Positions 58,887 through 62,305 of a stretch of 64,000 bases of DNA are shown here, piece by piece; within the stretch, counting starts at the first letter, position 1; each line of letters opens with the position of its first letter. Made by a program: the position numbers and the translations under genes. Location: contig NZ_CP009518.1 in NCBI RefSeq assembly GCF_000970325.1, positions 1 to 64,000 of the forward strand, given 5' to 3'. The notes under the pieces were generated by a model that saw only the letters and a list, made by a program, of their open reading frames with translations, searched no databases and was not told where the DNA came from. The stretch is from Methanococcoides methylutens MM1. GTDB lineage: Archaea; Halobacteriota; Methanosarcinia; Methanosarcinales; Methanosarcinaceae.

Positions 58887-59369
58887 TCACTTTGTCTTGA
58901 TGACCATCACTGCGTCTTTCTTCTCGTAATCGTAGAAACCATCGGCTGCGATCGTAAGGTCCATGGTACCTTCGTTCTGGTTAGCACCCATTTCAACCTG
59001 TGCAGCGGTAGTTATCAGCGTGGTCTCACCGTTGATGTCTGTGGTATTGCTTGCCACACCGCCAAGGCCTCGCAGAACAGCGTTCGCATTACGGACAGGA
59101 TTCCCATCAGGGTCGGTAGCTGTGATCCTGATCACGACTGTCAGCGGGTTCTGTGCAGTTACTGCATCAACAACGATGGTATTTCCTGCACTCAGTGTTG
59201 TTCCCTGAAGCCCTGCTTCATCGATGTTCACTGCCATGTTCTTTGTGGGTGGTGGGATTATGGCAATGAGCGCTGCCAGTGCGACCATTCCGACGACCAG
59301 CATGACCACGATGTTGATGGGTAGCTCTATCGCCCTTTCATCATTAAAGATTCTTCTCGCGTTTTTCAT
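58887..59369 (-). CDS. Pilin-like surface protein with Ig-type domain (paralogue B)
   Basis: 160 residues with the same plan as its neighbour: FNDERAIELPINI, one hydrophobic helix (about 19-40), then a domain with NPVRNANAVLRGLGG and DINGETTL. The shared D-E-x-A-I-[EG]-LPI motif before the helix may be the prepilin-type processing and assembly signal. The two genes are 21 bases apart. A TATA element lies on the minus strand near 59425-59437. Confidence 0.65.
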   Translation of the reverse strand: MKNARRIFNDERAIELPINIVVMLVVGMVALAALIAIIPPPTKNMAVNIDEAGLQGTTLSAGNTIVVDAVTAQNPLTVVIRITATDPDGNPVRNANAVLRGLGGVASNTTDINGETTLITTAAQVEMGANQNEGTMDLTIAADGFYDYEKKDAVMVIKTK

Positions 59370-59482: not shown

Positions 59483-59497
59483 ATCGCGTTAGATTGA
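59483..59497 (+). repeat. 15-bp direct repeat, left copy (island boundary)
   Basis: ATCGCGTTAGATTGA, identical to 62291-62305. It lies just downstream of a TATA-like TTATAT (59464-59469). Confidence 0.8.
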
Positions 59498-59605
59498 GAG
59501 GATGAGGTGGTGTGATAGTAACGCAGAGGCATTTAAAGTACAGTGACATGTTTCGTCAGAATCAAATGAGTGTTGTTGAAGAATCTTTATTCTGAATTCG
59601 TTAGT

Positions 59606-59710
59606 ATGGAGACAAAGGTCGCAACTGTTAGAAAAGTTATCAATGTTTTGGTAAAAGCATTAAAAATCATTTTGAAGAATCTACTTCATGAGATTGTAAA
59701 CACGAGTTAA
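59606..59710 (+). CDS. Possible small ORF encoding a 34-residue amphipathic cationic peptide
   Basis: ATG 59606 to TAA 59708-59710. The product is almost entirely one predicted amphipathic helix: hydrophobic residues recur every three to four positions with Lys/Arg between (VRKVINVLVKALKIILKNLL). It has the look of a membrane-active or toxin-like peptide. No clear ribosome site is seen. It converges with the PIN gene, 49 bases away. At this length a chance ORF remains possible. Confidence 0.3.
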   Translation: METKVATVRKVINVLVKALKIILKNLLHEIVNTS

Positions 59711-59759
59711 CAAATTCTAAGTATTACCCACCGATAAAAAAAGGTAAGAGGGAATCTAA

Positions 59760-60308
59760 TCAGTTTTTTATCATGAATTTATTGGCTGTGAGAATATCCA
59801 TATTCTCTGTACAAAAATCGGAATCGTTTGTGACAAAAATGAAAGCATTATTTTCGCAAATATTTCCAAATACAAGGTCATTAAAGTCGTGATGTCCAGA
59901 TTCATATTTAGAAATTATGTTTTCCATATCTATAGATTCTAGATTAGAATCAATTCGTTTAGACCACCTTAATATTTTATCAACGGTTATTGAAATTTCT
60001 TTTGCAACTGACTTGAACTGAGGTGTTTCTCTGAATAGTTTATACTCATTTTGCTCGTATCCAAGAGATTTTCTTTGTTGCTTAAACTCAAGACGTGCCC
60101 AAGAATTAATAATCTCAGAAATTATTAAACAATTTGTATAAATAGGAATATTATTCTTAATTAGCTTATAGTATAGATCAGAACATGGTGCTTGAGCCCA
60201 AAATTTGGGTGAAGGGCCATATATGGCTAACCAAACATTTGCATCAAAGAATAAGATGTCTCCTTCAGTAGGTGAATAATTATTTACATGGTCAATATTA
60301 GTTGCCAT
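59760..60308 (-). CDS. PIN-domain nuclease of the island
   Basis: About 182 residues. The PIN acidic set is complete: Asp in LFFDANVWL, Glu in LIISEIINSW, Asp in HHDFNDLVFG and Asp in FVTNDSDF. It probably cleaves single-stranded RNA such as tRNA or mRNA. The frame opens at 60383, but ATG 60308 (MATNIDHV) overlaps the end of the STAS-like gene by 11 bases and gives the expected domain start. ATG 60314 is a close alternative. No antitoxin of a VapB type is adjacent. Confidence 0.82.
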   Translation of the reverse strand: MATNIDHVNNYSPTEGDILFFDANVWLAIYGPSPKFWAQAPCSDLYYKLIKNNIPIYTNCLIISEIINSWARLEFKQQRKSLGYEQNEYKLFRETPQFKSVAKEISITVDKILRWSKRIDSNLESIDMENIISKYESGHHDFNDLVFGNICENNAFIFVTNDSDFCTENMDILTANKFMIKN

Positions 60309-60678
60309 TATCATCACCAAGAACTTCCTTCGCAACTCTGATGTAATGATCAGGATCATCAAAAAAACGTTTTGCTCGGTCAACCACCATTTTCAAAATG
60401 ATTCTATCATTTTTATCCATATTAATAACAGATAGCTTTGACCTTATGTAGGCTTCATCAAAATTGCCATATAATTGTCCAATAGCATTATTCAAAAATG
60501 CAGACGTTAAGTCTATTACTCCATCAAATGAAATGATTACTTTTTTACCATCTGAAAGAGCATTTTCGATAACCGAATAGATTTTTTGTCCATCTCCATC
60601 GGTTACACAGATTCCATCATCAATAATTTCAACTATGTTGATTACTACTTCATTGTCCACTGTATCACACTTCTTCAT
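60298..60678 (-). CDS. STAS-like DUF4325 protein
   Basis: 126 residues. The core VIISFDGVIDLTSAFLNNAIGQLY is the signature of the STAS-like DUF4325 family, small proteins resembling anti-sigma-factor antagonists. The SF...TSAFLN segment occupies the position where STAS proteins carry the phosphorylatable Ser. It starts 5 bases after the ATPase stop and overlaps the PIN gene, so all three proteins are probably made together. Confidence 0.78.
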   Translation of the reverse strand: MKKCDTVDNEVVINIVEIIDDGICVTDGDGQKIYSVIENALSDGKKVIISFDGVIDLTSAFLNNAIGQLYGNFDEAYIRSKLSVINMDKNDRIILKMVVDRAKRFFDDPDHYIRVAKEVLGDDNGN

Positions 60679-60683
60679 AATTG

Positions 60684-61559
60684 TTAAAAGATGTTTTCAC
60701 AATCGTTATCATATTCAATGAAATGGGGTGTATTATTGGAAGTGTTTATTTCGATGTTCACAATCGTCCCTGGAAAGTTATCTTTAAATGTATTTATAAT
60801 TGGTCTATCTTTGGAAAACTCCCAAAAACCATTATAAGTAATTATTTGCATTTTTCCGCCATTTGCTTCAATAAAACGTTTAACTCTTTTCAAGCCCAAC
60901 CCTCCCGGTACACAACTTCCTTTTCTAGTTGTTTGATCTTCTTCCATTGCCCAAGCAATAGCATTTTTGGGAGACAAGTCTAGATCTATCTTTTTCTTAA
61001 TATTCCCATGAAATCCGATTCCTAAATCAACGATTGAAAAATCTAGACGATTTTGGCGGTGGAAATACTGTCCACACGAAAAGATTTGTTTTGTTTCGGA
61101 ATGAAATACAGAATTACCAAATATTTCGTAAAGGCTTCCTCTAAATTCTTTAAATATATTATCTCCCATTTTAGGCATTCCATGTATTCCAGGTTGAAAA
61201 TGCTTGTTTACATATCTTTTATATTCATCGTTTGCATCAAACTGAATATATTCAATAGTAGAATCATAATAGTCTGGCCTAGAAGGTACATTGAATCCAA
61301 ATTTAGGCAAAAATTTGTTTTTTTGCAAAATTTCTGTTACAGCCGAAGTGCAATTAAGAGTTATTGGAATATTTCTATCAAGAATTGGTAATAAAATCGA
61401 ACCAAGTGGTGCACACATGTTTGCATCAAACCACCATGGCATATCAATTATTAATTCATCATCGTTTTCGATTGTTTTTATCTTTTTGTAGAGGCTTGTT
61501 ATTTTTTGAAACCCTTGATAATTACTACTGAGTGCTCCTTTCCCTAAAGATACGTCCAT
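60684..61559 (-). CDS. GHKL (histidine kinase-like) ATPase of the island
   Basis: 291 residues. The first ~120 residues are of unknown fold. The GHKL ATPase then shows the N box (YEIFGNSVFHS), G1 (IVDLGIGFHGN) and G2 (VPGGLGLKRVKRFI). There is no His-phosphotransfer domain or membrane helix, so it resembles anti-sigma kinases (SpoIIAB/RsbW) more than sensor kinases. With a STAS-like partner this suggests a kinase/antagonist switch. A GAGGTTG ribosome site precedes the start and a minus-strand TATA box lies near 61605-61613. Confidence 0.82.
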   Translation of the reverse strand: MDVSLGKGALSSNYQGFQKITSLYKKIKTIENDDELIIDMPWWFDANMCAPLGSILLPILDRNIPITLNCTSAVTEILQKNKFLPKFGFNVPSRPDYYDSTIEYIQFDANDEYKRYVNKHFQPGIHGMPKMGDNIFKEFRGSLYEIFGNSVFHSETKQIFSCGQYFHRQNRLDFSIVDLGIGFHGNIKKKIDLDLSPKNAIAWAMEEDQTTRKGSCVPGGLGLKRVKRFIEANGGKMQIITYNGFWEFSKDRPIINTFKDNFPGTIVNIEINTSNNTPHFIEYDNDCENIF

Positions 61560-61613
61560 GGTGCAACCTCTAAAACAAAATTAGGATACGCATCCATACT
61601 CTCATCTCTATAA

Positions 61614-62290
61614 AAAGTTTTCTATTTAATGCAAGACTGCAAAAGATAGAAAATCTTTTTACGCCTCTTTCTGCCTTCATCGAAAACAAGTGAGCATACT
61701 TAAATTATGGAGAGATTTGTTTTCATGAGAATGTATTACGAAAAATAGGAATCGTTGTCAACTAACTGTACTGTGAAGAACCTTTATCTACCTTAAAAAG
61801 ATATTGCCAAGTGGACGGCATGGATTTATTTTGTGTTTGCTTGCCCAGGAATGCAAATAATGATATGTTGGACTAAACGATGATTTGAGAACCTTTTCTC
61901 AAGGAATCGGGAGGTGACCTCCGTTATGCCGTAGGAAACAATGTTGATAATGTTGTTAATAATTCAAACAACATTAGACATTGTACTGAAAATTGCAGAA
62001 AAAATCTAATAAGTTTTTTTTGCATACCTGGTATGGGGATACTTTCCCCAATACCAGTCGTATATAACCTTTTACCAAACGCTTTTAATAGTATATTGAC
62101 GTAGTTTAATTTGCATTTTATTATAAAGTGGCATAACGGAGGTTTGCAAAGTCATAATAGTTGCTGGGCAAATTTAGACTACTATTATGATTTTAGCCTT
62201 CAATATAGTATTTTTGTAATATTTCTTCTTGAATTAACTGTGTTATTGTCATTTTGGCATGAAATTCAGGCTTGTATCCTACCCTCTATC
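61614..62290. other. Non-coding right part of the island with inverted repeats
   Basis: There is no credible gene; a 64-codon frame at 62111-62305 is hydrophobic but lacks start signals and conservation cues. A perfect 14-bp inverted repeat lies at 61917-61930 and 62130-62143. A local palindrome GGAGGT/ACCTCC (about 61910-61922) shares its left arm. Further hairpins are GGTATGGGGA...TCCCCAATACC (about 62029-62054) and 62152-62161 with 62181-62190. A TATA-like GTATATAACC lies near 62059-62068. Confidence 0.55.
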
Positions 62291-62305
62291 ATCGCGTTAG
62301 ATTGA
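62291..62305 (+). repeat. 15-bp direct repeat, right copy (island boundary)
   Basis: ATCGCGTTAGATTGA, identical to 59483-59497. It ends 26 bases before the hisH start. Confidence 0.8.

Follow-up and report, generated by a model that had tools for sequence, protein, structure and literature searches.

Introduction

The closest described system to the locus studied here is VapKSC, a module of a CapK-like STAS-GHKL kinase (VapK), a STAS antitoxin (VapS) and a VapC-like PIN toxin (VapC), published in EMBO J on 9 June 2026 (PMC13373217), the only source in which we found literature use of the name. The operon originates from Escherichia sp. E4736, and its VapS-VapC complex is represented by PDB entry 9z7o, with a VapS2-VapC2 crystal structure (PMC13373217). 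Experiments demonstrated the toxicity of Escherichia VapC and its neutralisation by VapS, with both neutralisation and binding abolished by the S48E substitution in VapS (PMC13373217). In E. coli, Escherichia VapKSC conferred ~2-log protection against phage, which required VapC D28, VapS S48, and VapK F54 (PMC13373217). Phosphorylation of VapS at Ser48 by VapK and activation by ssDNA were proposed from CapK/CapS and AlphaFold; ssDNA activation was shown for the cousin CapK/CapS, and Escherichia VapK was insoluble (PMC13373217). In the bacterial model, the system senses DNA damage, the authors call the boundary between defence and damage fuzzy, and 36% of bacterial vapKSC operons lie near defence genes (PMC13373217). 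The main text names bacterial hosts only, and archaeal members may already be listed in its Dataset EV3 (PMC13373217).

Here we analysed a three-gene operon in the first 64,000 nucleotides of the Methanococcoides methylutens MM1 chromosome (NZ_CP009518.1; hereafter, the window). We conclude, with a probability of roughly 0.85, that this operon is an archaeal VapKSC, a post-translationally switched toxin-antitoxin system and probable anti-virus or DNA-damage module. The earlier note on this DNA had stated that no described system contained this trio, which has been out of date since VapKSC was published in June 2026. Its proposal that the ATPase and STAS proteins hold or release the PIN RNase on a signal, in a module without VapB, matches what was shown or proposed for Escherichia VapKSC (PMC13373217).

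Operon organization and genomic context

The minus strand contains three open reading frames, which encode in turn a GHKL kinase, a DUF4325 STAS-like protein, and a PIN protein; the coordinates, 5-base spacing, and 11-base overlap given in the earlier note were borne out. The operon and its upstream signals, the latter read from the sequence, are as follows:

vapK, 60684-61559, minus strand: 291 aa, putatively STAS-like N-terminal domain (~1-85) and GHKL anti-sigma-factor-type kinase domain (~98-276)
vapS, 60298-60678, minus strand: 126 aa, STAS-like DUF4325 antitoxin with predicted phospho-acceptor Ser59, a short C-terminal region, and no wHTH
vapC, 59760-60308, minus strand: 182 aa from ATG 60308, predicted PIN-domain RNase toxin with catalytic residues D22, E65, D144, and D162
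Candidate archaeal TATA element CTTTTTATAG, 61608-61617, minus strand: ~50 nt upstream of vapK
Shine-Dalgarno AGAGGT, 61566-61571, minus strand: upstream of vapK

The spacer between vapK and vapS covers 5 nt (60679-60683). The listed PIN reading frame has 207 aa from a TTG, while the start at ATG 60308 yields 182 aa, consistent with relatives, and with this start, vapS and vapC overlap by exactly 11 nt, so that their translation is probably coupled. A sigma-70 promoter scan was uninformative given that the host is an archaeon; to our knowledge, archaea have no sigma-70 factors.

The host genome consists of one contig of 2.39 Mb and is 99.99% complete. With 31-33% GC vs ~48% in its flanks, the stretch that contains the operon is AT-rich. 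Two small pilin-like genes lie on one side of the operon and hisH on the other; the label pilin-like is our reading of the N-termini, with Pfam giving no firm name for either gene.

Features of VapS, VapC, and VapK

VapS was assigned to Pfam PF14213 (DUF4325; E=8e-19) and, in a PDB sequence search, matched Escherichia VapS (9z7o chain A; E=1e-12). Ser59 of the window protein aligned with Ser66 of that chain, which corresponds to S48 in the numbering of PMC13373217 under the assumption of an 18-residue tag, deduced from the lengths of 134 and 116 residues. The C-terminal segment also aligned with that of Escherichia VapS and, at 126 aa, the protein contained no wHTH. A PADLOC assignment of VapS to QatB (E=0.04) was judged a chance match.

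In Pfam, VapC matched PIN with 20.5 bits (E=8e-4), short of the curated cut-off of 23.6 bits. VapC matched Escherichia VapC (9z7o chain C) over residues 4-183 (E=0.0025), with its first aspartate, D22, aligned with catalytic D28. The four acidic residues that the earlier note had reported (D22, E65, D144, and D162) were intact and, together with D141 and D164, essentially invariant in 83 relatives. The AF2 model (pLDDT 94) retrieved VapC/VapBC toxins as structural matches, the best ones being archaeal and bacterial VapCs; 9z7o was absent among these matches, which is uninformative given that the fold library ends in April 2026.

The GHKL ATPase was likewise intact, as had been claimed: the N-box (E145..N149), DxGxG (D178-G182), and GGLGL (219-223) motifs of VapK were nearly invariant in relatives, and E145, N149, H153, D178, G180, G220, G222, and L223 were invariant among 70 VapKs from trios. 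The AF2 model, built from a 53-row alignment (pLDDT 92), had an N-terminal domain of alternating strands and helices followed by the GHKL domain, with no HTH of the CapK type. The N-terminal domain is probably STAS-like, judging from the strand-helix order in the model and the architecture described in PMC13373217. For the GHKL part (98-276), the best structural match was SpoIIAB (Z 10.7; 2.9 A over 135 residues), and the top five VIA-align rows were all SpoIIAB chains (Z 10.1-10.7; 2.8-2.9 A; 127-135 residues). The aromatic that putatively contacts ssDNA, F54 in Escherichia VapK and W68 in CapK, would be Trp43 or the adjacent Phe44, matched to F54 by position only; the position of W43 was occupied by W, F, or Y in 98% of the 70 VapKs, and that of F44 by F in 84%.

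Searches of Pfam, NCBIfam, PADLOC, and PDB sequences with VapK returned nothing usable, a PADLOC match to DrmA (E=0.002) being judged due to chance. In a search for Escherichia VapK, no close relative was found in plasmids, phages, viral contigs, or 369 genomes of the class to which a Legionellaceae locus belongs.

Recurrence of the trio across genomes

Scanning genomes, one for each species, with a VapS alignment as query yielded 282 relatives, 80 of which were kept. The complete trio was present in the same gene order in 73 of these 80 loci, with the kinase reading frame split in some, and this recurrence indicates that the trio is not a chance arrangement. The other seven comprised two archaeal VapS-VapC pairs (L063 and L094), two loci in which vapK was fragmentary (L074 and L084), one in which vapC was (L065), one truncated at a contig end (L038), and one with just a broken VapS (L067). 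The co-occurrence that the earlier note had asked about was thus found: with a query consisting of VapS only, the trio recurred and the PIN gene was present in the great majority of loci, being rarely absent.

Bacterial hosts included, among others, Planctomycetota, Nitrospirota, Chloroflexota, Poribacteria, Pseudomonadota, Acidobacteriota, and Myxococcota. Archaeal hosts were Methanosarcinaceae UBA9310, two Methanosarcinales bins (GoM-Arc1 and one other), and a Methanothrix bin. A profile search detected VapS in 23 of 393 genomes of the phylum of the window, and five genomes in this set had trios: the window genome, G033, G386, G141, and G416. Both G141 and the window genome consist of one contig and are at least 99% complete, so their trios cannot be due to bin contamination.

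Full vapKSC-like trios were also observed on MT837343.1, an unverified phage scaffold from human faeces (L017 1420-3192), and on Deinococcus gobiensis plasmid P5 (L016 4036-5882), which shows that mobile elements carry the system. Solo VapS-like proteins (L025 6653-7012 and L023 451-756), with Ala at the acceptor position and neither a kinase nor a PIN gene, were found beside TPR-repeat proteins, one of them adjoining a type I restriction-modification gene. Divergent pairs of GHKL and DUF4325 genes with no PIN gene occurred in archaeal relatives (L028 5733-8132, L027, L029, and L030), the L028 pair directly downstream of what we read from its sequence as a NurA-like nuclease gene. These loci may point to further effectors of the same switch.

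An inserted island carries vapKSC

The AT-rich stretch was delimited by direct repeats and contained one further feature outside the operon:

Left direct repeat ATCGCGTTAGATTGA, 59483-59497, plus strand: 15 bp, bounds the inserted island
Right direct repeat ATCGCGTTAGATTGA, 62291-62305, plus strand: 15 bp, bounds the inserted island
Inserted island carrying vapKSC, 59498-62290, no strand assigned: 2.8 kb, AT-rich (GC 31-33% vs ~48%), with empty sites in congeners
Strongly folding non-coding segment, 61917-62143, plus strand: 14-bp perfect inverted repeat around several hairpins (fold z -6.6)

The repeat occurred in just two copies in the whole 2.39-Mb genome. In the closest congener (G008), the flanks, 92-97% identical to those of the window, joined at a single copy of ATCGCGTTAGATTGA, and empty sites with a single repeat copy bearing one mismatch were also found in G004 and G005. 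None of the 10 further genomes sampled from the genus had a DUF4325/VapS gene. In a tree of VapS and VapC, the window operon paired with the GoM-Arc1 bin (SH-aLRT 95), to which its coding DNA was 73% identical over 1.7 kb, and stood apart from the trios of its own family. This archaeon acquired the vapKSC island horizontally. The separate branching from copies of the host family and the clean empty sites indicate that the cassette is mobile, as expected of a defence or toxin-antitoxin cassette.

The operon was the sole recognisable gene content of the 2.8-kb insertion, with no integrase or transposase gene and no recognisable replication or transfer gene inside it, and the island had no DNA matches in plasmids and phages. 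The folding segment had a z of about -6.6 both as RNA and as DNA, matched no Rfam family, and was absent from 111 other genomes of the family; it is possible that it represents a non-coding RNA, a plasmid origin remnant, or an element end.

Other insertions were observed near this site. The sister species G007 (L164 1581-16900) had a ~15-kb element with a tyrosine recombinase, a resolvase, a methyltransferase, and an HNH gene, inserted into the 5' portion of the pilin-like gene beside the vapKSC site (window ~59258-59270). This element apparently duplicated ~13 bp at insertion, and G003 seems to show a similar break. In G006, the interval between the pilin-like gene and hisH had a transposase-like reading frame. 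The interval looks like an insertion hot spot.

Kinase-less VapS-VapC pairs and the acceptor residue

VapS-VapC pairs with no adjacent vapK were present in 19 genomes of the host family: 15 in genus g7, which we take to be Methanosarcina, and 4 in genus g11, 2 of which also had a full trio elsewhere.

Pair loci, L020, L021, L022, L115-L130, and L134-L136: kinase-less VapS-VapC, acceptor Ser replaced by Pro

All 19 pair loci were directly downstream of a gene for a LigD 3'-phosphoesterase (PF13298). In a profile search of the genomes with pairs only, no true VapK was found among the matches listed; their best matches (5e-5 or weaker) were GHKL-only and located in other, mostly longer proteins, and true VapKs scored 1e-101 to 1e-118 in the same search. 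The VapC of the pairs kept all catalytic residues, and median dN/dS was ~0.12 in vapS as well as vapC, synonymous sites being nearly saturated; the pair is under purifying selection across a genus-level clade. The 18 pair rows grouped in a single clade (SH-aLRT 99) whose sister was a full trio from the host family (98), which is most simply read as one ancient event in which a trio lost vapK.

The residue at the Ser48/Ser59 position was Pro in every readable pair, a replacement that would remove the phosphorylation switch. All 81 compared loci with VapK had Ser or Thr there (75 S, 6 T), while the 23 loci without an intact VapK had Pro in 18, Ala in 2, Val in 1, and Ser in 2. Part of this set came from the scan behind the 282 relatives, whose pattern allowed only S, P, or T at the acceptor; the genus and phylum profile searches were unrestricted there. 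The two loci that kept Ser although the kinase was not intact were L084 and L024, and the Ala and Val residues belonged to solo VapS proteins (Ala in two, Val in one). Kinase losses amounted to about 5 independent events on the best tree, 2 of them on well-supported branches, and a statistically significant co-variation of kinase and acceptor was rejected given too few independent events. We therefore claim no significance; loss of the acceptor is associated with loss of the kinase in these relatives, in few events.

We think it probable that, besides full VapKSC operons located on mobile islands, archaea have a derived VapS-VapC pair, conserved in at least 19 genomes of the host family, that lost the kinase and the switch and whose toxin is presumably controlled otherwise, perhaps in relation to DNA-break repair. 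The kinase-free lineage with a changed acceptor is our most original result, and the available text of PMC13373217 makes no mention of it. These relatives lend evolutionary support, from few events, to the view that Ser48/Ser59 matters because of the kinase, and the pair, if truly kinase-free, would provide a naturally kinase-off variant for testing the VapKSC model.

Proposed mechanism and alternative explanations

By homology, the archaeal operon would work like Escherichia VapKSC, probably against viruses or DNA damage. With its STAS domain and C-terminal region, VapS would bind VapC and keep the PIN RNase inactive. VapK would then be activated, in the bacterial model by ssDNA arising from damage or infection and bound beside the conserved aromatic, and would phosphorylate VapS at Ser59, upon which VapS would release VapC, and the freed toxin would cleave RNA and stop growth.

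The same biochemistry might serve a general response to DNA damage or stress, with growth arrest as its outcome, rather than defence against viruses. This role, which we regard as plausible but rather unlikely, is consistent with the sensing of DNA damage in the bacterial model and the fuzzy boundary acknowledged by its authors (PMC13373217). It also fits the surroundings of the operon, which do not form a defence island, as none of the ten genes flanking vapKSC had a PADLOC match. However, phage protection of ~2-log by the Escherichia system and the proximity of 36% of bacterial operons to defence genes (PMC13373217) argue for an anti-virus role, as does the window copy being a mobile insertion found in 1 of 11 sampled genomes of the genus.

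We consider it improbable that vapKSC is a selfish addiction module that stabilises the small insertion without benefiting the host. Being the only recognisable gene content of the insertion, the operon could be read in this way, but a dedicated kinase switch would be needless for addiction, no replication or transfer gene that could benefit was recognised in the island, and the pair form has been retained across a genus-level clade at a dN/dS of ~0.12. Hardly credible is a transcription switch like CapK/CapS, in which the kinase would control a DNA-binding STAS repressor of the operon with PIN as regulated cargo only: CapK and CapS are homologues in kind of the window kinase and STAS protein (PMC13373217), but the 126-aa VapS and 291-aa VapK have neither room for nor sign of a winged helix or HTH, VapS matches the toxin-bound VapS of 9z7o, and the PIN gene consistently completes the trio.

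An archaeal VapKSC would extend a recently described bacterial immune or toxin system to archaea, which do not have the sigma factors that are the usual clients of kinase-STAS pairs of this type. The test of ssDNA activation that failed with Escherichia VapK may also become feasible with the archaeal protein, should it be soluble.

Comparison with known systems

The window operon shares with Escherichia VapKSC the gene order kinase-STAS-PIN and the lack of a VapB, a VapK made of a putatively STAS-like and a GHKL domain with no HTH, a VapS with an acceptor Ser and a short C-terminal region, and a VapC with the catalytic Asp and N-terminal motif. In contrast, its host is an archaeon, the operon is on an AT-rich insertion, the identity of its VapC to the Escherichia protein is low, and Trp43, next to Phe44, would occupy the predicted ssDNA position where Escherichia VapK has Phe54 (PMC13373217). 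With CapK/CapS, it has in common a STAS and GHKL kinase, a STAS-domain substrate, and Ser phosphorylation as the predicted signal, whereas the additional N-terminal HTH of CapK and the C-terminal winged helix of CapS, which serve transcription control, are absent from the window proteins.

SpoIIAB/SpoIIAA and RsbW/RsbV resemble the window operon in kinase fold (SpoIIAB, Z 10.7) and in the logic of a serine-phosphorylated STAS partner, but the predicted target here is a PIN RNase rather than a sigma factor, and VapK has an extra N-terminal domain that is putatively STAS-like. Finally, the operon shares a PIN-domain VapC toxin with VapBC, but no VapB lies upstream of vapC, the antitoxin is STAS-like (PF14213) with no DNA-binding domain, and release of the toxin is proposed to occur via phosphorylation rather than antitoxin loss.
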